45,152 nt of DNA from assembly GCA_012516855.1 (NCBI GenBank), contig JAAYWB010000068.1, positions 1 to 45,152 on the forward strand, in the 5' to 3' direction. Numbering within the stretch: the stretch's first letter is position 1; every line of letters begins with the position of its first letter. This DNA comes from Candidatus Cloacimonadota bacterium. Its GTDB lineage: Bacteria > Cloacimonadota > Cloacimonadia > Cloacimonadales > Cloacimonadaceae. Below, in pieces: positions 13,119 to 37,140 of this stretch. The notes beneath the pieces are model-generated. The model was not told where the DNA came from. It searched no databases and saw nothing but the letters and a program-made list of their open reading frames with translations. The position numbers and the translations under genes are program-made.

Positions 13119-13555
13119 TTAGCCACCATTATAGTATTCTCTTGTTTACCAGATAGTTGCGTATTGTTATTTAAATCTCAGGATTCGGAAATCCCATTCA
13201 CCGGAACGGCAATCAAGGAGTTCCGGGGTACTTGGAGCAACTCTGGACAGGACTTCAATCTTGTAAAGGAAAAAGTTCCGGTTCCGCTTCCAGCGGCCTT
13301 TCCCAAGATCATCTGTTTTCAGAAACATGGACTGAGACAGATTGTCCAGTTCGTCAGAGACAGTCTCTGCCAAGTAATCAGAATCTACCTGCAATAGGTT
13401 AACCGCTAAGACAAGTCCTCCATATTGAGCCATGTTGACCGAACCAATGCAAATGAAAATCAGGCTGATTTGAGAAAAGGACTGATAATCTGCTTGACAG
13501 ATGGGGAGCAAAAAGTAAATATGGACTCAAACATGAAGCATACAAGGGGATGGTT
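13119..13555. other. Divergent intergenic region between recJ and the STAS gene
   Basis: About 440 bases with no recognised gene. It holds a TATAAT facing recJ (13133-13128) and a plus-strand promoter at 13494-13521. A minus-strand reading frame (13432-13167, about 88 residues) has protein-like composition, but no ribosome site and no family I recognise. Confidence 0.5.
13494..13521 (+). promoter_or_regulatory. Sigma-70-type promoter of the STAS-prmC-murA operon
   Basis: TTGACA (13494-13499), a 16-base spacer and TAAATA (13516-13521), placing the transcript start about 28 bases before the ATG at 13556. Confidence 0.55.
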
Positions 13556-13864
13556 ATGAACATTGATCTCAGCTTCAACGGCGACAGGGCGCTGATGGTC
13601 GTCGAAGGCTTTCTCAACAGCGACAATGCATCAGTCCTGCAGGCAAAGCTGGACGAGGTGCTGCAATCGGGCGCGCGTTATCTGGATATCGACCTGTTTG
13701 AATGCAAGAATATCAGTAGCACCGGCATCGGCAAATTGTTCCTTTTCTACAAAGATTTCATCGGCAAGGGCGGGGAGATTGAAGTGGTGCGCAGTTCGGA
13801 CTCCATCTACGAACTGTTCAGCATGCTCAAGCTCAACCAACTTTTCAATATTAATCTGGAATGA
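13556..13864 (+). CDS. STAS-domain anti-anti-sigma factor
   Basis: About 102 residues, one STAS domain. The phosphorylation-site region reads DLFECKNISSTGIGKLFLFYK, where the serine before TGIG is the residue normally phosphorylated by a partner kinase/anti-sigma factor. Such proteins bind the anti-sigma ATPase and release a sigma factor or other target. ATG 13556 is preferred because AAGGGG lies six bases upstream; an ATG at 13550 overlaps that site. Its stop overlaps the start of the next gene (ATGA), so it is coupled to a receiver/anti-sigma-ATPase protein, which makes the pair a partner-switching module. Confidence 0.88.
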   Translation: MNIDLSFNGDRALMVVEGFLNSDNASVLQAKLDEVLQSGARYLDIDLFECKNISSTGIGKLFLFYKDFIGKGGEIEVVRSSDSIYELFSMLKLNQLFNINLE

Positions 13865-14097
13865 TTGTGCAAACCCACAGCATCCTTATAGTTGACGACA
13901 ATCCGGAGCTCGCGAAGAGCCTGGGCAAGCTGCTGGCCGAGCACAATTATCGGGTGGAAACAGCCAGCCGCTGCAGTGACGCCCTCCGGAAGCTGCGCAG
14001 AAACCTATATGACATAGTGGTTTGTGATATTGATATGCCCGGTATGAACGGACTCGATCTTTTGGAAAAGATCCGCCAGGATGGTCGCGCTCAGTAA
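13861..14097 (+). CDS. Response-regulator receiver, N-terminal part (cut by in-frame TAA)
   Basis: 78 residues covering the first two thirds of a CheY-like receiver: acidic pocket D12-D13 (LIVDDNPEL) and phospho-acceptor D56 (VVCDIDMPGMNGLDLL). The reading frame stops at TAA 14095-14097. The next codon onward continues the same fold in the same frame with ILMTG (the conserved Thr) and NKPV (the conserved Lys). So the gene is one receiver-ATPase fusion split by a stop codon. It could be a genuine nonsense mutation, a sequence error or a read-through site. On its own this fragment lacks the last strands and helix of a receiver and probably would not fold. Confidence 0.85.
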   Translation: MIVQTHSILIVDDNPELAKSLGKLLAEHNYRVETASRCSDALRKLRRNLYDIVVCDIDMPGMNGLDLLEKIRQDGRAQ

Positions 14098-14787
14098 GTG
14101 ATTCTGATGACAGGCTTTATGGAACAGGAACACTTTGTCCGCGCCATCCGCCTTGGCGCTTCCGATTTTATCAACAAACCGGTCGAAATCCAGCACCTGC
14201 TCAAATCCATTGAGATTATTACGGCTCGCCTCATTGACCGGCGCAACAAGGTCAACATGTTCAATAGCTTCGAACAGGCGGAGTTTTCCTGCGTTATCGA
14301 TCCCCAAATGTATTCCGCGGCGGGCGTCACCAAAATTCTCAATCCCATCCTGCAAAAAAACTTGGAACTTCCCCACGACACCCTCAGCGACCTGCTCACC
14401 TGTACCGACGAAATGCTACAAAACGCTTTCATCCACGGAATTCTGGAACTCACAGATGAAGAGCGGTTGAGCGAGCATGACCAACTGTGCGAACTCATCC
14501 GCCGCAAGCTTCTCCAGCCGGAAATAGTCGGGCGCCGCATGCGTTTTTCCATGTGGATGGAGAAGGAAAAGGAAGCCATAGCTATCTGCGTGGAGGATGA
14601 TGGCCCGGGCTTTGACTACGAGTCCTGGCTGAAACGATTGCGGGCGGATGACAACCTGAGCATGGAAGCTCATGGCCGGGGCCTGGCAATGCTGTATTTT
14701 CTTTCCGACCACTTGGAATTTGGGAACGGTGGCCGCAAAGTGATGATGCTGCGCAAACTCCAGCCCCGGAGGAACGCCCAGGCATGA
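14098..14787 (+). CDS. Receiver C-terminus plus RsbW-like anti-sigma ATPase domain (downstream of in-frame TAA)
   Basis: 229 codons in frame with the preceding fragment. The start of this part completes the receiver (ILMTGFMEQ, ASDFINKPVE). The rest is a GHKL/HATPase domain of the anti-sigma (RsbW/SpoIIAB) kind: N-box TDEMLQNAFIHGILE, G1 VEDDGPGFD, G2 EAHGRGLAMLYFLSD. Such domains phosphorylate STAS proteins, and a STAS gene lies just upstream. The first codon is GTG directly after the TAA, and an ATG follows at 14107; neither has a clear ribosome site, so independent expression is doubtful. Its end overlaps prmC (ATGA). Confidence 0.85.
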   Translation: MILMTGFMEQEHFVRAIRLGASDFINKPVEIQHLLKSIEIITARLIDRRNKVNMFNSFEQAEFSCVIDPQMYSAAGVTKILNPILQKNLELPHDTLSDLLTCTDEMLQNAFIHGILELTDEERLSEHDQLCELIRRKLLQPEIVGRRMRFSMWMEKEKEAIAICVEDDGPGFDYESWLKRLRADDNLSMEAHGRGLAMLYFLSDHLEFGNGGRKVMMLRKLQPRRNAQA

Positions 14788-15611
14788 CCCTGGCATCCCT
14801 GTTGGAAAGTTTGCGGCCCGGGCTGCTGCCCTCCTCCGGTCTGGATTTCCTGCTGGCTGGATTGCTCGATTGTTCCGTTCCCGCTCTCAGGCTGCAACAC
14901 AACAGGAAACTTGCCCCGCCTCAACAGGCTTCCATCCGCGACGCTCTCCTCCGGCTGGAGAAGGGGGAGCCGCCCCAATATATTTTGGGCAAAACCTGGT
15001 TTTACGGTTTGGAACTGAAGGTCGATCCCCGCGTTCTCATTCCCCGGCCGGAAACCGAAGGTCTGGTGAAACTCGCCCTTGAGCGCTTGAAACCTGAAGC
15101 CCGGGTGCTGGAGATCGGCACCGGAAGCGGCGCCATCGCCATTGCCTTGAAAAAAACCGGGCCAAACCTGAGCGTGATGGCCACGGATATCTCTTCCGCG
15201 GCGCTGGAACTGGCGCGGGACAACGCTTCCCGACACAACTGCGCCATAGATTTCGTAGAGGCGGACCTTTTCCCTCCTGGCGACTTCCGCTTTGACCTTG
15301 TTGTCAGCAATCCCCCCTATATCAGCGAAAAGGAATACTCGGAACTGGAACCCATGGTGCGGGATTATGAGCCGCGGCAGGCTCTGCTGGCAGCGGAAGA
15401 AGGCCTGGAATATTACCGCTACCTTTTTCCCGGTCTGCCCAACCATCTGAATGATGGAGGCCTGGCCCTCTTTGAACACGGAGCTTTGCAAAGACAGAGC
15501 ATCATTGCCCTGGGGGCGGAAGCCGGCTTTGAATGCTGCCTGGCCAAAGATGACCTCGCCGGCCGGAACCGCTATCTGGGCTTTAGACTTAAACGAAATA
15601 CAGAGAAATAG
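14784..15611 (+). CDS. prmC: Release factor glutamine methyltransferase PrmC (HemK)
   Basis: 275 residues. PrmC methylates the GGQ glutamine of release factors RF1/RF2. The C-terminal Rossmann methyltransferase shows VLEIGTGSGAIAIAL for SAM binding and the signature VVSNPPYIS that holds the glutamine. The N-terminal helical domain ends in the family sequence PPQYILGKTWFYGLELKVDPRVLIPRPETE. It overlaps the upstream ATPase gene by four bases and precedes murA by 16, so its transcription probably comes from the promoter at 13494. Confidence 0.95.
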   Translation: MTLASLLESLRPGLLPSSGLDFLLAGLLDCSVPALRLQHNRKLAPPQQASIRDALLRLEKGEPPQYILGKTWFYGLELKVDPRVLIPRPETEGLVKLALERLKPEARVLEIGTGSGAIAIALKKTGPNLSVMATDISSAALELARDNASRHNCAIDFVEADLFPPGDFRFDLVVSNPPYISEKEYSELEPMVRDYEPRQALLAAEEGLEYYRYLFPGLPNHLNDGGLALFEHGALQRQSIIALGAEAGFECCLAKDDLAGRNRYLGFRLKRNTEK

Positions 15612-15627
15612 AGAATAAGGACACTAA

Positions 15628-16881
15628 ATGGACAGATTCATCATTGAAGGCAACCGCGAACTGAGCGGCACCATCCAGGTGAGCGGGGCCAAAAATGCCA
15701 TCCTGCCCGTGATGGCAGCCTGCCTCCTCGCTCCGGGCAAATCCGTGCTGCGCAACGTTCCCAACCTCATCGACCTTAAAACCATGGCCCACCTGCTGCG
15801 GGTGCTGGGAGCTCGCGTGGTCTATGAAAACGGCATGATGTCGATTGACTCACGAGATGTGAATTTCAACGAAGCGCCCTATGAACTGGTGAGCAAGATG
15901 CGCGCTTCAATCTATGTGCTGGGGCCGCTTTTGGCAAGATTGGGCGAGGCCCGGGTCTCATTTCCCGGAGGCTGCGCCATAGGCACCAGGCCTGTGGACC
16001 TGCATCTGCAAGCAATGGAAGCACTTGGAGCCAAAATTGAGATCGAACACGGCTACATCCACGCCACCGCCGACCGGCTCACCGGCGCGGACATCCATTT
16101 CGCTAAATCCTCTGTGGGAGCCACTATCAACGCCCTCATGGCCGCCGTCTTGGCCAGTGGCACCACCCGTATGTTCAATGCCGCCATGGAACCGGAGGTG
16201 GATTCCACCATCGAACTGCTCAACAAAATGGGCGCGAAAATTTCCGGTCAGGGCAGCACCACCCTCACCATCGAAGGCGTGAACGACCTCTTCCCTGTGG
16301 AAATGAGGATGATCTCCGACCGCATAGAAGCCGGCACCTTCCTCATCGCCGGAGCCCTCAGCACTAAGCCTGTCACCGTGGCAAACTGCCAGCCGGAGCA
16401 TTTGGGCATCCTGCTGGAAAAACTGCGCTCCGCCGGCTGCGAAATCGATGTCCAAGCTTCCAACATCACCGTTGTCCCACCCCAGGTGATCAAACCTGTG
16501 GACATCCTAACCCTGCCCTATCCAGGCTTCCCCACCGACCTCCAGGCCCAGTTCACCGTGCTGATGGCGCTTGCCGAAGGCACCTGCTTCATCGAGGATA
16601 CCATTTTCCCGGACCGCTTCATGCACGTTGCCGAACTCAACCGCCTCCAGGCCGACATCCGCATGGAACGCAACGTTGCCCATGTGAAAGGGGTCAAAGC
16701 CTTCAGCGGCGCTGAAGTGATGGCCACCGACCTGCGCGCCTCCGCGGCTCTTGTCCTAGCCGGTATGGTCGCCGAAGGCACCACCACCGTTTCCCGCATC
16801 TACCACATCGACCGAGGATACGACCGTATCGAGGAAAAACTCAATTCCATCGGGGCCCGCATCACCCGCGAAATGGCTTGA
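15628..16881 (+). CDS. murA: UDP-N-acetylglucosamine 1-carboxyvinyltransferase
   Basis: 417 residues. MurA makes the first committed step of peptidoglycan synthesis, moving enolpyruvate from PEP to UDP-GlcNAc. MDRFIIEGNRELSGTIQVSGAKNAILPVMAACLL is the usual start, with the KN pair that binds substrate. The catalytic loop reads FPGGCAIGTRPVDLHL with C116, so this is the normal Cys form that fosfomycin alkylates. The late IYHIDRGYDRIEEKL is also typical. It is the last gene of the STAS-prmC operon and ends before the hairpin at 16895-16952. Confidence 0.97.
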   Translation: MDRFIIEGNRELSGTIQVSGAKNAILPVMAACLLAPGKSVLRNVPNLIDLKTMAHLLRVLGARVVYENGMMSIDSRDVNFNEAPYELVSKMRASIYVLGPLLARLGEARVSFPGGCAIGTRPVDLHLQAMEALGAKIEIEHGYIHATADRLTGADIHFAKSSVGATINALMAAVLASGTTRMFNAAMEPEVDSTIELLNKMGAKISGQGSTTLTIEGVNDLFPVEMRMISDRIEAGTFLIAGALSTKPVTVANCQPEHLGILLEKLRSAGCEIDVQASNITVVPPQVIKPVDILTLPYPGFPTDLQAQFTVLMALAEGTCFIEDTIFPDRFMHVAELNRLQADIRMERNVAHVKGVKAFSGAEVMATDLRASAALVLAGMVAEGTTTVSRIYHIDRGYDRIEEKLNSIGARITREMA

Positions 16882-17554: not shown

Positions 17555-20083
17555 TCACTCCGGCAGGTGGTCCCAAAGCCCTTCATAGCTGTCCCATTTT
17601 CCGTTTTTGAGGGTGAGGGTGATGGTGCGCGCCCGGTTGCGCTGGTCCTCGGTCATCCACTGCGCCCAAAGCTGGCTTACCACATAATTGGCAATGGGTT
17701 GCGGCGCCGGCTCGTAACCCACCCAAAGGAATTTCCGTCCCAGGGAACGCAGCTTTTCAGCTAATCGGATGCTATTTTCCTGGTCGTGGTTGCCGATTAG
17801 AAAGATCTCGAAGCCGGTTGTGTCTGCCGGGGTTAGCAGCTCCGTAAGTTCGTAATAGACACCATCGTTCCAGCCGCGGGGGTAATCCTTCAGAAAGATC
17901 TCCACCGTGAGGCTGTCATCCAGGTCCAGATGTTTGGTTTGGAAAGCGGTCAGGCTGTCCGAGATCCGGTAAATGGCGGAAAGGTAGCATTCACCCTTGG
18001 GCACCTGGAAACTGAGGACCCCGTTGCCCTCGTCCTTTCCGGAATAGCCTTCCAGCCAGGCATAGTCGCCCTCGCGGATATCAGAGAGGATGAGCATAGC
18101 CCTTTCGTTCGATCCCAGAGGCGCGCCTGATTCGTCAGAAACAAGCACGGTCAGCTTCACTAATGCCTCCTGCTCATCGGGATCTATCTCCGGAGCACAG
18201 GTTTCCAAATCATAATAACCGCTGTCACCATCGTCAAATATGACCCCTATGTGCTTGCTCCGGAAGCCGGCATAGGCAGGAATTCCGTTGGCACGAGCCA
18301 GGCTGACAGCCATTAGCTTGTATTGGGCGTTGTTGAGATACTTTTGTCCGATGACGACATGGAGCGGCGGCATACCGCTTAAAGCCTTGTCGGGGTCTAT
18401 CTTGTAGTTTCTCTTCAGCCAGCGCGCCGCCCGATTCAGACGTTCAAGCCGGGTTTCACCCTGTTGGTAAAATGAGCGGGGATAGAAGCTGGGTATCCCG
18501 TTCCGGAACCCCAGCGGTTGGGGCAGTTCTTCATAGCGGACAGAGGGAAAGATCAGCGACCCCATATCCTGGCCAATATTCTCATCATCTTCATATTTTA
18601 GGTAAGCATGATATACTGCTTCAATCTGGTCAGCGCTGGCCTGCCAGAGGAACTTAGGGTCCATGATGCCCCATTCTTCAGCCAAACAATCCTCGATAAA
18701 CCCTTCGCAGGGATGGGGATAGCGGCGCAGGAACTCCAAAGCCCCGGCATAATTCCCCCGCGCGGCTTTGACAAATTCCGCGTTGAGTGAATCCGCCTGG
18801 GAAGCGGCGACCCTGGCCCAGCTTCGGTCGATGGCATTCCAGCGTTCCTTTTCCCGCTTCACGCCTTCGTTCCAGTCTTCCGGAGCCTGTTTCCATTCGA
18901 AGGGGTTGGAGGGATAGACAAGCCGGTCATCGCGGTCAGCCAGCGGCCCGGCTTTCAGCGTCAGGTCGCAGTTGATGAGCGTGCTGTCGCTGGAAGGGAC
19001 CAGCTCCAAGGCCCGCTTCCCATCTTGCTCGGCGGCCAGGTAAAAGGCACCGCGGCCCACGGAGAAAGTTAATTTGCCTTCGGCATCCGTTTTGAGCCAG
19101 GCCAGCGGACGCAGGGCAGACCAGTTCACCACCATCACGCCGACCGAGGTATTCGGAAGCGGATTACCTTGCTCATCAAGGGTTTGGATGCTGAGAGAAC
19201 GGGTGCGTTCCCCGGCATAGTTGCGGATGGAATTGATCACGCAATCGTATTTTCCGCGAATCAGGACCTCGTCGCTGGCTGCGGGCAGAGAGCCGTCGGC
19301 AAGGATCAGCACGGTCTTGTCGATGAGGCCGCTGAACCAGGTCTGGTCGGGCCAATAGGCGGCATCCATGTCTCCGGTATAGTGCCAGGCTCCGTCCAGC
19401 CAAACTTCTGCCCAGGCGTGATTGTTATCCTGATGCGGCCACCAGGGTGTGGAAGCCGGCCGCGAGGGCAATCCAACCGTTCTGGCGGCGGCCACGAAGA
19501 GGATTTGCATCTCCTCACAACGCCCTAACAGGCTTTTTTGGGTGATGTCGAGCGGGGTTTGGTCGCGTCCTGAGGTGGGTTGAAACTTGAGGCGGCCCAC
19601 GCACCACTGGCTGACTTTTCTGTACAGGTCGATCTCATCCGTGCTGGACTCCATGATTTCACGCAGACCATCCCGGAGCAGGCCTTCGCGGTAAGCCTCT
19701 ATGCGTTCGTCGGATACGGTTTGCTTGGCCACGTAGGAGAGGTAGAATTCCGGGTCCAGGCTGGTCCCGTGGGTATTGAGGAGGGCGCGTACATGCAGAT
19801 AGTTCGACAGCACATCTGCCGGGCGGGCGATCTGGAGGTTGGCATCACTTTCATAGGCAAGCAGATAGGCCATCAGAACGTCGTCTTGTTCTTTCAGCAG
19901 ACGCCGATATTCCTTCCTTTGATGGCGGTCCAACTTGGCAAGGTTGCCCAACGCTTTGGAGCGCAGGGTCTTATACAGCCCGGGGTTCCCCTTGGAGGTG
20001 AAGGCTGAAGGAAGAGCGGCCAGGCTTGCAATGGCACAGGCCAGAAAAACTATAAGCAGGGTGAAACGCTTGGCGTTCATCAT
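17555..20083 (-). CDS. Large secreted transglutaminase-like protein
   Basis: 842 residues with a signal peptide (MMNAKRFTLLIVFLACAIASLAALP). A transglutaminase/protease-like core lies at about 150-240 with the Cys-His-Asp triad visible: C189 (LGRCEEMQ), H222 (NNHAWAEVW) and D238 (YTGDMD). The rest includes a carboxypeptidase-regulatory-like beta domain (LSIQTLDEQGNPLPNTSVGVMVV..LKTDAEGKLTF) and a second helical region with a weaker transglutaminase-like look (KLMAVSLARANGIPAYAGFR). It probably cleaves or cross-links peptides outside the cytoplasm. It has no FlgD-like sorting tail, unlike the C25 protease upstream. The extended -10 TGCTATAAT at 20127-20119 suggests its own promoter. Confidence 0.82.
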   Translation of the reverse strand: MMNAKRFTLLIVFLACAIASLAALPSAFTSKGNPGLYKTLRSKALGNLAKLDRHQRKEYRRLLKEQDDVLMAYLLAYESDANLQIARPADVLSNYLHVRALLNTHGTSLDPEFYLSYVAKQTVSDERIEAYREGLLRDGLREIMESSTDEIDLYRKVSQWCVGRLKFQPTSGRDQTPLDITQKSLLGRCEEMQILFVAAARTVGLPSRPASTPWWPHQDNNHAWAEVWLDGAWHYTGDMDAAYWPDQTWFSGLIDKTVLILADGSLPAASDEVLIRGKYDCVINSIRNYAGERTRSLSIQTLDEQGNPLPNTSVGVMVVNWSALRPLAWLKTDAEGKLTFSVGRGAFYLAAEQDGKRALELVPSSDSTLINCDLTLKAGPLADRDDRLVYPSNPFEWKQAPEDWNEGVKREKERWNAIDRSWARVAASQADSLNAEFVKAARGNYAGALEFLRRYPHPCEGFIEDCLAEEWGIMDPKFLWQASADQIEAVYHAYLKYEDDENIGQDMGSLIFPSVRYEELPQPLGFRNGIPSFYPRSFYQQGETRLERLNRAARWLKRNYKIDPDKALSGMPPLHVVIGQKYLNNAQYKLMAVSLARANGIPAYAGFRSKHIGVIFDDGDSGYYDLETCAPEIDPDEQEALVKLTVLVSDESGAPLGSNERAMLILSDIREGDYAWLEGYSGKDEGNGVLSFQVPKGECYLSAIYRISDSLTAFQTKHLDLDDSLTVEIFLKDYPRGWNDGVYYELTELLTPADTTGFEIFLIGNHDQENSIRLAEKLRSLGRKFLWVGYEPAPQPIANYVVSQLWAQWMTEDQRNRARTITLTLKNGKWDSYEGLWDHLPE

Positions 20084-28761: not shown

Positions 28762-31041
28762 TCAGTACTTGCTGATTTTCTTGAAGGCTGTTTCCCGCCC
28801 CGAGGCATACAGCCTGAGCAGATAGATTCCAGCGTGAACCTGGGTTCCTGAATGGTCCTTCCCGTCCCAGGTCAAGCTGTGTTTGCCGGGTCCGTAAGAT
28901 GCGCTGGATAAATCGCGTAGCTTCTGTCCCCGGAGGTTGTAAACAGCCAGCTCGGCCCGGGCAGGGGATTTGAGTTCGAAACTGATCTCCACGCTGCCGG
29001 AAAAGGGATTGGGACTGGCGGAAAGCTGGATTTCCGGAGGTTTGGGCAGTTCTTCCCCGTTGGCACCGGTGGTGAGGGTGTAGGCATAGATGGCGATGTT
29101 GTCCTGCCCGAAGAGATAAAGATACTCATCGTCCCAGGCGATATTGACGGAATATGAGTATTGAGGCAGGAACAGGTCCTCTGTCTGAAATCCCGTTAGC
29201 GGAACTGTCGTGTCGTAGAAACTTACTCCGTGAGGCCGGCCCACGCAGACGTAATCGTGGAAGGCAAATGCCCTGATGTCGCTTGCCACTTCAAAGGTTG
29301 ATAATTCGTTGTGGAATATGCAGGTTGGGCCAGGATAGTCACGGATATACAAGTAGTTTCCCGCGTCCAGCATTGCCCATAACCCAGGGATGAATCCCTC
29401 CCTCACCACAGGCGCTTGGGGTGTGTTTTGCTCAAAACCGTTAGTGGCATAGAGGTCATACCGGTCTGGCGAAGAGGGGGAAACGCTGGCCTGATAGAGA
29501 ATCCCGCGATTAAAAACCGGATCACGGAGAACCACGGGATTGGGATGGCTGAACAGCAGGCTGGCCTGGCCGCCGGAAATCTGGTATTTGCTAACGGACA
29601 GGCCATCAGCGGCCAGGCAGTAGAAAAGCTCCGGCTCGCGGGGGTTGAAGAATATCCTGCTTTGTAGGCTGTAGGGCTGTGACCACACCAGTTGCGGGTT
29701 TTGGAGGTCGCTGATGTCGTATATGGCTTCGGTTGTCAATGTACCGTAGCTGCCCGCAGGGGTCATCCAAGCCAGCAGGTAATTGCCGTTCACCAGCGCG
29801 TAAACCGTCCTGTCGGGAAACACGGAGAAGGCGTATTGTGGAGATTCGGGCTGGGAGATGTCAAAGCAGGCTATGCCGCGGAAACAGACCGGCTGCAGGA
29901 TGTAGTTGCCGTATTTACAGCCGAAGCTACTATACATGGGCAGGTCGTAACATTCACCGGCAAAGACCACGGTGCCGGAGTCTGTCACCTTCAAGCAGAG
30001 GCAGCCATAAAAGGTGCAACTGTGAAAGAGAAAGTCGCCGCAGGCCAGCAATCTCTCCATGGCGGGATATTCCTCCAGGCCGGGCGGGTAGAGGTCGCTG
30101 GAGACCAGCAGTGGCTGGCTAAGGTTCGATATGTCATAGACATACAGCCGGGACATGTCTGTTTCATAGTCTCCGAACACCAGATAGCCATTGCAGATCA
30201 CGCCGTTGGAGTCATATCCGCCCTCGATGAACGACATCTGCTGCCAGTTCAGGATATCCGTGAGCTGGAAGATGTACATCCCCGAGCCGCATTGGCTGCC
30301 AACCACGGAAGGGCCCAGATCGGCAAAGCGGGGAAAGGTGTTCACAGGGTAATGCGGCAAAGTGACGGTTCCCAGAGCGGTTAAACCAGTGGCCGGGTCC
30401 ACGCTGAAGAGATGAAAGGGCGCGGAATTGTAAGGCCGGGTTATTACATATCCGTCCGCGATCGTTTCAAAATGGTAATGCCCCGGATAGCTGTGAGTGA
30501 TGCTGAGAGTTTGTGGATCGATGCAGACCAGTTCCTGCAGGAAACCTCCGCTTTGAGTGGAGGCCAGCAGCACTCCGTTGGCCAGGCGCATACTCCTGTA
30601 ACTCAAGCCGGCGGTTCCAGCGGTTATGCTTCCGGCTGGCTGGGGATGGTGAGGATCGGAAATGTCGATCCGGAACAGCACTTCAGCATCCGAACCCACT
30701 GCGTTGCCAGAGCCAAAGAACACAGACAGGAAGAGATAATCCTGCCAGGCTACCATTTCGTGGGTCATGCCCGGCACGCCGTAATTGGCAATTTCCGTGA
30801 AGGTGTTCGCGGTGCTATCCCAAACACAGACCTGGAACCCGTAACTGTTTGGGATGTAAACATAAGGATACTGGATAACAGGCTGGCGGGCATAGCTCAT
30901 GTCGTGGGTGGCAAAGGCGAAGCGCGAAACCTCCTGTAACTGCAGTTCCTTCTTCTGAGCCTCGCCCCGGCCGACCCACAAAAGCAGCGTCAGCAACAGC
31001 GCCACGCCGAACCAGAGACTGTGCTTTGCTCTGTGTTTCAT
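28762..31041 (-). CDS. Secreted beta-propeller protein with FlgD-like sorting tail
   Basis: About 759 residues from ATG 31041. MKHRAKHSLWFGVALLLTLLLWVGRGEAQ is a signal peptide; the longer frame before it is not protein-like. The body has repeated units of the LVIVD type (LFRIDISDPHHPQPAG; LYVYDISNLSQPLLV; IACFDISQPESPQYAF; AIYDISDLQNPQLVW), which form an extracellular propeller often linked to adhesion. The C-terminus is a FlgD-like Ig domain (SASPNPFSGSVEISFEL..ELAVYNLRGQKLRD..LTWDGKDHSGTQVHAGIYLLRL) as in the C25 protease and the endonuclease here. The upstream lipoprotein gene ends 37 bases before, so the two may be one transcript. The precise ligand is unknown. Confidence 0.82.
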   Translation of the reverse strand: MKHRAKHSLWFGVALLLTLLLWVGRGEAQKKELQLQEVSRFAFATHDMSYARQPVIQYPYVYIPNSYGFQVCVWDSTANTFTEIANYGVPGMTHEMVAWQDYLFLSVFFGSGNAVGSDAEVLFRIDISDPHHPQPAGSITAGTAGLSYRSMRLANGVLLASTQSGGFLQELVCIDPQTLSITHSYPGHYHFETIADGYVITRPYNSAPFHLFSVDPATGLTALGTVTLPHYPVNTFPRFADLGPSVVGSQCGSGMYIFQLTDILNWQQMSFIEGGYDSNGVICNGYLVFGDYETDMSRLYVYDISNLSQPLLVSSDLYPPGLEEYPAMERLLACGDFLFHSCTFYGCLCLKVTDSGTVVFAGECYDLPMYSSFGCKYGNYILQPVCFRGIACFDISQPESPQYAFSVFPDRTVYALVNGNYLLAWMTPAGSYGTLTTEAIYDISDLQNPQLVWSQPYSLQSRIFFNPREPELFYCLAADGLSVSKYQISGGQASLLFSHPNPVVLRDPVFNRGILYQASVSPSSPDRYDLYATNGFEQNTPQAPVVREGFIPGLWAMLDAGNYLYIRDYPGPTCIFHNELSTFEVASDIRAFAFHDYVCVGRPHGVSFYDTTVPLTGFQTEDLFLPQYSYSVNIAWDDEYLYLFGQDNIAIYAYTLTTGANGEELPKPPEIQLSASPNPFSGSVEISFELKSPARAELAVYNLRGQKLRDLSSASYGPGKHSLTWDGKDHSGTQVHAGIYLLRLYASGRETAFKKISKY

Positions 31042-31078
31042 GATGTTCTGTAGTCTGCCTTGTATATTGGCGATCCTT

Positions 31079-32197
31079 CTACTCCTCGACCAGCACATCC
31101 CCGTAGGAGTAGTGGCCATCGTGGAACCAGACGAAAACGCGGTAGAGGCCTGGCTCAAAATTGTGCACATCCAGGTAATGATTGTGGCATCCTGCACCCA
31201 GTATATCCTTTTTGCGCACCGTGTACTGGCTGCCGAGCAGCAGAATGGTCGCGCCGCTTTCGAATTTCACGTCCAGGGGCAGGTAAAAGTAGTTCCGGCA
31301 GGGATTCGGATAGGCAGGAGCGATCCTGTTTACAGCCGGGGGCGTTGTAACTGAGCACGGACCGTAAATGTAAGAGTCTGCTCCGTCAAAGACCCTCTCC
31401 AGCCAGTAATAATAGGTGTGGCCGGGGGACACGTTCACGTCGGTATAGCTGTAATCGTGCTGCTCGCTGGTGTTGGTGGCGGGGATGAGTTCCGGATTGA
31501 TAACCTGGGCGTTGGCAAAATCGTTCGTATCAGAGCGGTGGAGACGGAATCCCAGCATGTTCGTTTCCGAATAAGTTATCCATCTCAGAAGAATATGGCC
31601 CTGCTCATCCAAGATGACGATGAAGGGATCCCAGGGCGGGGGTATGATAATCGGGTTACCGTGGAAAACATAGCTGTAGGTATTGGTTTCCGGGGCGAAG
31701 CTGACCTCCGGCTCCACCAGAAGGAACTCATAATCCGGATGCGACACCAGGAAGCTGTTCTCCAAAGCCGGGTCGTAGGCACCCTGATAGCTGAAGCTGT
31801 GAGGTGTGAAAAACCCGGTGTCTTTGCCGTTATAATAGATGGCGGCGTTCAGCTCCACGGAGCCATTGTATTCACAAAACGCCCGGACCAGGATGTGGTA
31901 TTCGTCCCTGGCCCCGCCTGCCTTGGCGCCCATTTTGGGCAGAGCGCCCCGGCTGGAAGGATCATAGGCAAAGATCTGCCAGTCGTTGGCATCGCCATCT
32001 TCGCCGTAAGCCACCGTGCCCAGGGAAGTTCCGTTGGCATCGGTGTGCTCGTAATCGGCAAAATGGTCCACATAAACGGGAAAATCCTGGCCGTCAATTT
32101 CGATCCAGCCAGAAGGTTCGTCTTCAGGACAGAAAAGGCTGCAGCCCGCGAGCAGAGCCAGCAGGGCAAGGATCAACAGAAAGGCGATTTTCTTCAT
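31079..32197 (-). CDS. Lipoprotein with fibronectin-III-like and sorting-like C-terminal domains
   Basis: 372 residues. MKKIAFLLILALLALLAGC is a lipoprotein signal (lipobox LAGC). The mid-part has a fibronectin-III-like unit (ILLRWITYSETNMLGFRLHRSDTNDFANAQ..YSYTDVNVSPGHTYYYWLE). The end resembles the FlgD-like tails of the region (IAPAYPNPCRNYFYLPLDV..DVHNFEPGLYRVFVWF) but lacks the usual GQ-K and W-G-D motifs. AGGAGG before the ATG is a strong ribosome site. I do not recognise a named family. A surface role next to the propeller protein is likely. Confidence 0.75.
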   Translation of the reverse strand: MKKIAFLLILALLALLAGCSLFCPEDEPSGWIEIDGQDFPVYVDHFADYEHTDANGTSLGTVAYGEDGDANDWQIFAYDPSSRGALPKMGAKAGGARDEYHILVRAFCEYNGSVELNAAIYYNGKDTGFFTPHSFSYQGAYDPALENSFLVSHPDYEFLLVEPEVSFAPETNTYSYVFHGNPIIIPPPWDPFIVILDEQGHILLRWITYSETNMLGFRLHRSDTNDFANAQVINPELIPATNTSEQHDYSYTDVNVSPGHTYYYWLERVFDGADSYIYGPCSVTTPPAVNRIAPAYPNPCRNYFYLPLDVKFESGATILLLGSQYTVRKKDILGAGCHNHYLDVHNFEPGLYRVFVWFHDGHYSYGDVLVEE

Positions 32198-35509: not shown

Positions 35510-36547
35510 TCACTGGCTCATCAGCACTTTGGCCGAGGCATTAAGCCCATCGCTGTGCAAGCGGATCAAATATACTCCGGGAGCGGCTTTTTGCCCCTCC
35601 TTATCCCTGCCGTTCCAAGATATTTCAGAATTTCCGGCAGTAAGCACCTGGCTCCAGGAGCTCACAATCCGGCCTTTCACATCATGCACGGAAACGCTGG
35701 CCTGGCGGGCTTCCTTGCTTTGCACGGACAGGGTGGTGGAATCCGAAAACGGATTTGGCCAAACCCGGTCCAAACTCAGTTCCGCTGCTGGAGAAGCGGT
35801 TTCTTCATCCACAGCCACCCCGCCCCAGATGCGGCCCACGAATTCCGGATGGTCAACATAGGGGTTGCGGTTGGTCTGAAAGCCGTAAATGCCGTTGTTG
35901 CGGGAGATTTCGGCGGCGTCGGGCGGATCGGCAAAATGCCACTGCACCAGCACCGGTGTCATGTTCACGTTTTGCTGGGTGAGGCTGTCGTTATAGCGGG
36001 TGTTGAAATAAAGCAGGGCACGGGCGATGTTGCCCTTGCTCTCGTCGGCCGGTTCGAAAACCGTGTAGCCGCCTGAGCTTTGGCCACGGTAGCTCTGCCA
36101 GGGGGTGTCGTTGTAATAGACGTTCGCGGAGGCGTGGTTGGCCACCGTGAACAGGGGATAATTGCCCCGCGAGCTGTTCACCACCGAATTGGAGGGATAT
36201 AGATGGTGCAAATCGGCCTTTTTCCGGCTGGATTCATTCGAACTGAACCAGCTTTGGGCGTAGGTGTGCTCGGTGTTTGGGTTGTTGGAACCGGTGTAGT
36301 TGTAGCCAACGTAATATTCCTCGCCGGTATAGATGCAGGTCACATAGCCGTTGTGGTTGTCAAGTTGCTGAAATAGAAACTCTTTGGCTGCTCCGTAATC
36401 GCTGTTGGTGTTCGTGGAGATGAGAGTGCGCAGCGCGGAATAGAGTTGCTGTCCGCTGAGGTTTATCACGTTATCGTAGTAATTGCCCTGGGCGCAGGCG
36501 AAGGCAACGGCCAGCAGCAGGAGCAGGGTAAGGATCATATTCTTCAT
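35510..36547 (-). CDS. Secreted endonuclease I family nuclease with FlgD-like sorting tail
   Basis: About 345 residues. MKNMILTLLLLLAVAFACAQG is a signal peptide. The body matches endonuclease I (EndA/NucM type) nucleases: YDNVINLSGQQLYSALRTLIS, TEHTYAQSWF (catalytic-site His) and KKADLHHLYPSNSVVNSSRGNYPLF, the DLHHL..N..R..YP signature. It should cleave DNA or RNA outside the cell. The C-terminus is a FlgD-like Ig domain (VWPNPFSDSTTLSVQSK..SVHDVKGRIVSSW..ISWNGRDKEGQKAAPGVYLIRL), the third in this window. ATG 36547 overlaps the gmhA stop by four bases; the longer frame start is less likely because the signal peptide begins here. Confidence 0.9.
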   Translation of the reverse strand: MKNMILTLLLLLAVAFACAQGNYYDNVINLSGQQLYSALRTLISTNTNSDYGAAKEFLFQQLDNHNGYVTCIYTGEEYYVGYNYTGSNNPNTEHTYAQSWFSSNESSRKKADLHHLYPSNSVVNSSRGNYPLFTVANHASANVYYNDTPWQSYRGQSSGGYTVFEPADESKGNIARALLYFNTRYNDSLTQQNVNMTPVLVQWHFADPPDAAEISRNNGIYGFQTNRNPYVDHPEFVGRIWGGVAVDEETASPAAELSLDRVWPNPFSDSTTLSVQSKEARQASVSVHDVKGRIVSSWSQVLTAGNSEISWNGRDKEGQKAAPGVYLIRLHSDGLNASAKVLMSQ

Positions 36548-37140
36548 GGTCTTATGTCTCCGGAAGCGTCCGCAAAGAGCAGCCGCTCCACGCATTCAAT
36601 GATGATGTGCAGGATTAGGGTGTGCAGTTCCTGGATCCTGTCGCTGTGTTCGCCGAGCACGATTATCTGGAATTCGCAGCTTCCGGCGAGCCTGCCTCCA
36701 TCCCTGCCCAGCAGGGCGACGGTGTGGCAGCCCAGTTCCCGCGCGGTTTCCAGGGCGCGGATCACATTGGGTGAATTGCCACTTGTGGAAATTCCCAGCA
36801 CCACGTCCTCAGCCACGGCGTAAGCTTCCACGCCTCGGGCGAAGACCTGTTCGAAACCATAGTCATTGCCCACACAGGTGATGTGGCTGGGGTCAGACAA
36901 CGCTATGGCGGGCAGAGCCTTGCGGTCCCGGCGAAAGCGGCCTGTAAGCTCTTCCGCGAAGTGCATCGCGTCGCACATCGAGCCGCCGTTTCCGAAAACT
37001 ATCACCTTGCCGCCGCAGTCAAATCTCCGGGCGATCAGCCTGGCTATGTTTTCGATGGCGGCGAAATTGCCATCATCAGCCAGAAATGTCTCCAGGGCGT
37101 GGCTGGCAGCGGTGCAGGAAGCTTGGATGAGTTCACGCAT
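36544..37140 (-). CDS. gmhA: Sedoheptulose-7-phosphate isomerase
   Basis: 198 residues, one SIS domain. GmhA makes D-glycero-manno-heptose 7-phosphate, first step to the heptose of lipopolysaccharide or S-layer sugars. Visible: GGKVIVFGNGGSMCDAMHFAEELTGRF (phosphosugar loop), LGISTSGNSPNVIRALETAR and the C-terminal HTLILHIIIECVERLLF helix. It lies two bases after adenosine deaminase and overlaps the endonuclease, so the three are probably one operon. Phosphoheptose use fits a Gram-negative envelope. Confidence 0.9.
   Translation of the reverse strand: MRELIQASCTAASHALETFLADDGNFAAIENIARLIARRFDCGGKVIVFGNGGSMCDAMHFAEELTGRFRRDRKALPAIALSDPSHITCVGNDYGFEQVFARGVEAYAVAEDVVLGISTSGNSPNVIRALETARELGCHTVALLGRDGGRLAGSCEFQIIVLGEHSDRIQELHTLILHIIIECVERLLFADASGDIRP

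Follow-up and report, generated by a model that had tools for sequence, protein, structure and literature searches.

A private in-frame stop codon in a conserved receiver-ATPase gene of a Cloacimonadota bacterium

The stretch of DNA analysed here (the window; 45,152 nucleotides from a Candidatus Cloacimonadota bacterium) carries a receiver-ATPase gene whose reading frame is not continuous, being broken by a TAA at codon 79 that occurs in the window only. We lean towards a nonsense substitution that arose recently, is confined to the sampled population and truncates a conserved protein of the receiver-serine kinase/anti-sigma type at this codon. Such an allele was ranked as the most likely explanation and an error in the consensus sequence as the second; the stop is private, lies one substitution away from a sense codon, and sits in a gene that is otherwise normally constrained. 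The stop is ordinary in kind and does not represent a novel mode of gene control. Regulators often carry premature stops, whether as real alleles or through errors in draft genomes, and the mechanistic importance of this one is therefore small. If the allele is real, the species no longer has the kinase of a partner switch that seems to be the only complete one in its genome, and whose module the rest of the Cloacimonadota family retains next to prmC-murA.

The frame runs from a receiver through the TAA and the remainder of the receiver into an RsbW-like ATPase, ending at 14787 (Table 1). The TAA is its single stop. A GTG follows directly at 14098, as the first-pass annotation had reported, and is where the longest mechanically called ORF after the stop begins. 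Translation and the Pfam Response_reg profile bear out the further claim that the D pocket of the receiver lies before the stop and its Thr and Lys after it, all in one frame: profile positions 1-68 fall 5' of the stop and 74-110 3' of it. Residues D12, D13, D56, T84 and K106, invariant in congeners, all occur in the window frame, with the TAA falling between D56 and T84. Read through the stop, the receiver scores 108 bits, more than any of the six others in the genome, so no receiver residues are missing. The ATPase domain is intact (HATPase_c_2, 56.3 bits against a Pfam cut-off of 27.4), and its N, G1 and G2 motifs, described at first pass as unspoilt, are indeed so, with D183, E184 and N188, D246, D247, G248 and G250, and G272, R273 and G274 kept. 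The flanking genes do overlap properly, through ATGA at both ends (13861-13864, STAS end; 14784-14787, prmC-like start). Judged from the sequence, one codon is the sole oddity of this gene.

Table 1. Coordinates of the interrupted gene, its parts and its neighbours in the window.
Feature	Coordinates	Strand	Remarks
STAS-domain protein, RsbV/SpoIIAA-like antagonist, 104 aa	13550..13864	+	Pfam STAS 34.9 bits; 91% identical to G008
Receiver, first part	13861..14097	+	78 codons with D12, D13, D56, then TAA; Response_reg profile 1-68; orthologue alignment
In-frame TAA, codon 79	14095..14097	+	Sense codon in all full-length relatives
Remaining frame: receiver end (T84, K106) and RsbW-like ATPase	14098..14787	+	N, G1, G2 motifs intact
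Candidate internal start ATG, linker	14257..14259	+	Would give ATPase domain alone; unsupported
prmC-like methyltransferase	14784..15611	+	Pfam PrmC_N, MTS; own strong Shine-Dalgarno-like site, -9.5 kcal/mol
murA-like, 417 aa, last gene of conserved cluster	15628..16881	+	Named from sequence; 93% identical to G008; synteny

Orthologues are present in 11 of 12 congeners, and 10 of these 11 are full length without a stop. The eleventh, G010, lacks the receiver and has only the ATPase following the same STAS gene. The whole window frame aligns to uninterrupted orthologues of 304-308 aa, and is thus not a chance junction of ORFs. Two normally separate proteins, a possibility raised at first pass, are not what the relatives encode: theirs is one fused protein, from which G010 has lost the receiver. 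At the G010 locus (L056 / L013, contig 18) the STAS gene is followed directly by the ATPase in the same start context.

Most of the gene was recovered from 46 genomes of the family, 45 of them with a nearly full-length copy and the other being G010, and the window alone showed an internal stop. TAG in G002 and TGA in G032 had also been flagged as stops and were rejected as the genes' own terminal stops. Comparison of codon 79 across related genomes, which the first-pass annotation had recommended, showed that the remaining full-length orthologues all have a sense codon there. The residue is acidic in 9 of the 10 full-length congeners and Asn in the other; across the family loci read it is D, E, A, N or S. 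The window TAA is one substitution away from the codon of the nearest relatives. A search of genome contigs and viral contigs turned up no further genome of this species.

The STAS gene lies upstream on the same strand in the window and in all orthologous loci examined. The series STAS / receiver-ATPase / prmC / murA is collinear, with orientation preserved, at almost all of the loci examined in the Cloacimonadota family (window 13550-16881; loci L030-L056, L110-L139, L160); the exceptions are without prmC or murA matches, some owing to the end of a contig or stretch. The source genome is a 2.25 Mb Cloacimonadota draft in 138 contigs, the window being contig 68. For STAS and for HATPase_c_2 alike, a single match in this genome exceeds the cut-off, and both matches belong to the pair at 13550-14787, with one weaker match to each profile elsewhere. 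No second receiver-ATPase was found in the genome, and its one SpoIIE-type phosphatase is on another contig. The natural reading is that the pair would make up one receiver-controlled partner switch, the predicted phosphatase partner being encoded elsewhere. The weaker HATPase_c_2 match (G000 contig 60, 45845-46171, minus strand) lies in a frame of 186 aa, and similar frames of 186-192 aa are present in several congeners.

RsbW/SpoIIAB-type kinases with RsbV/SpoIIAA STAS partners share with the window the HATPase_c_2 N/G1/G2 motifs, a STAS gene immediately upstream and a SpoIIE-type phosphatase in the genome. The window kinase differs from them in its N-terminal receiver fusion, truncated by the TAA, in the location of the phosphatase gene on another contig, and in having no sigma-factor gene adjacent. 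Receiver-containing partner switches are represented by PA3346/PA3347 in Pseudomonas and SypE/SypA in Vibrio fischeri (PMC8256260). In both, as predicted for the window, a response-regulator protein phosphorylates a co-encoded STAS protein. PA3346 and SypE each carry both kinase and phosphatase, whereas a receiver and a kinase are all that the Cloacimonadota protein contains. Querying PDB sequences with the ATPase portion returned no match. Literature searches gave nothing combining all three of receiver, HATPase and STAS for such fusions, and nothing relevant on Cloacimonas pseudogenes.

Selection was assessed with a codon model on six congeners including the window, using a home-made implementation with codon frequencies taken from the data. 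Whole-gene omega was 0.14 for the window, 0.11 for G008 and 0.18 for the background, values that are approximate given the home-made model and moderately diverged synonymous sites. The pattern was similar when the gene was divided at the stop into stretches of 78 and 229 codons, neither of which departed significantly from background. When only the window branch was left free, its omega was 0.13 (upper 95% limit approximately 0.21) and the background value 0.17; a value of 0.2 was just tolerated and 1.0 was rejected (2dlnL 45.5). On the branch leading to the window, purifying selection of the ordinary kind acts on both sides of the stop, so the stop is either very young or not real. A longer unconstrained time should raise omega, and we calculate that it occupies at most roughly 5-10% of the branch. 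This low omega argues against an old pseudogene or decaying module, which we regard as highly improbable, as do 308 codons free of any frameshift or second stop. At codons 58 and 91 the window carries replacements of residues that ten congeners share without exception, as decay might produce, and G008 carries none, but both changes are conservative.

A young stop and an unreal one are harder to separate, and a one-base consensus error would look identical to a nonsense allele. The TAA may be an error of consensus or assembly, or the base of a minority strain taken into a metagenome consensus, with the gene intact in the organism; we hold this to be a serious possibility, though a less probable one than a real allele. 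The 138-contig draft looks metagenomic, just one substitution is involved, and constraint is nowhere relaxed in the gene. Nearly the whole family carries the gene, which also suggests that its loss may be costly and so weighs against the nonsense allele. The site is, however, 14 kb inside a 45 kb contig, and the error rate does not appear high. It was estimated by comparing 354 kb of the genome's own sequence with 843 kb of G008, yielding 48 orthologue pairs in the true coding frame (21,475 codons). An initial comparison showed 23 apparent interruptions. For a genuine stop, third-position divergence was required on both sides, and nearly all of the 23 were then recognised as shadow ORFs or over-extended starts. 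The TAA at 14095 was alone in having, on either side, high identity together with divergence dominated by third positions; the other stops resemble starts called too far upstream of the real gene. With only one convincing internal stop in 21,475 codons, the assembly is not generally error-ridden. Stop-codon reassignment was rejected likewise, as no other convincing internal TAA was present in the 48 pairs; that 14095 stands alone among them excludes both frequent error and reassignment.

Of the origins proposed at first pass, recent nonsense mutation and sequence error are thus retained, and read-through or re-initiation is disfavoured for a stop that is private, young and non-recurring. Comparative data likewise speak against the suggestion of translational control at the stop, which no relative shares. 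We consider it unlikely that the stop is functional, with read-through or a restart (GTG 14098 or ATG 14257) producing an ATPase without a working receiver, or mixed forms, as a regulatory state. GTG 14098 adjoins the TAA and is preceded by AGGATGGT, with a pairing of -6.7 kcal/mol, but the spacing is long, the stretch lying too far upstream, and this GTG is the family's ordinary Val codon. To our knowledge, TAA followed by G is not a leaky context, which counts against read-through. In favour of a restart, the linker ATG 14257 is absent from all five relatives aligned there, and it has AAGG 5 nt upstream. Its pairing with the anti-Shine-Dalgarno sequence is only average, at -3.3 kcal/mol, with 43% of random 20-mers equal or better. 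All other full-length orthologues have a sense codon here, and selection on the first 78 codons is as strong as elsewhere; both observations also argue against a functional stop. G010, with its ATPase behind the same STAS gene, shows that a receiver-less kinase is tolerated in the genus, and this leaves restart products a small chance of working. We find it very improbable that the stop is maintained and that a downstream restart yields a receiver-free ATPase as in G010, which would uncouple the partner switch from the phosphorelay.

Under the preferred reading of a recent nonsense allele, the 78-residue product would lack the receiver Thr and Lys and the entire ATPase, and would for that reason be inactive. 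The STAS protein would remain unphosphorylated, with the only SpoIIE-type phosphatase of the genome holding it in that state or bringing it there, and the partner switch would be stuck in a single setting. Weak restarts might still supply a little ATPase. Nonsense alleles of the ordinary, recent kind in regulatory genes of bacteria present the same private single-base stop, intact neighbours and downstream motifs, and selection not yet relaxed; the window allele, if real, shows no evident difference from them.

Elsewhere in the window, an 842 aa protein with a transglutaminase-like core is encoded at 17555-20083 (minus strand). An 811 aa protein (28762-31197, minus strand) and an Endonuclease I-family protein (35510-36595, minus strand) each have a C-terminal FlgD_ig / Por_Secre_tail-like region. 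These tails suggest that both proteins may be exported via a sorting-tail system.
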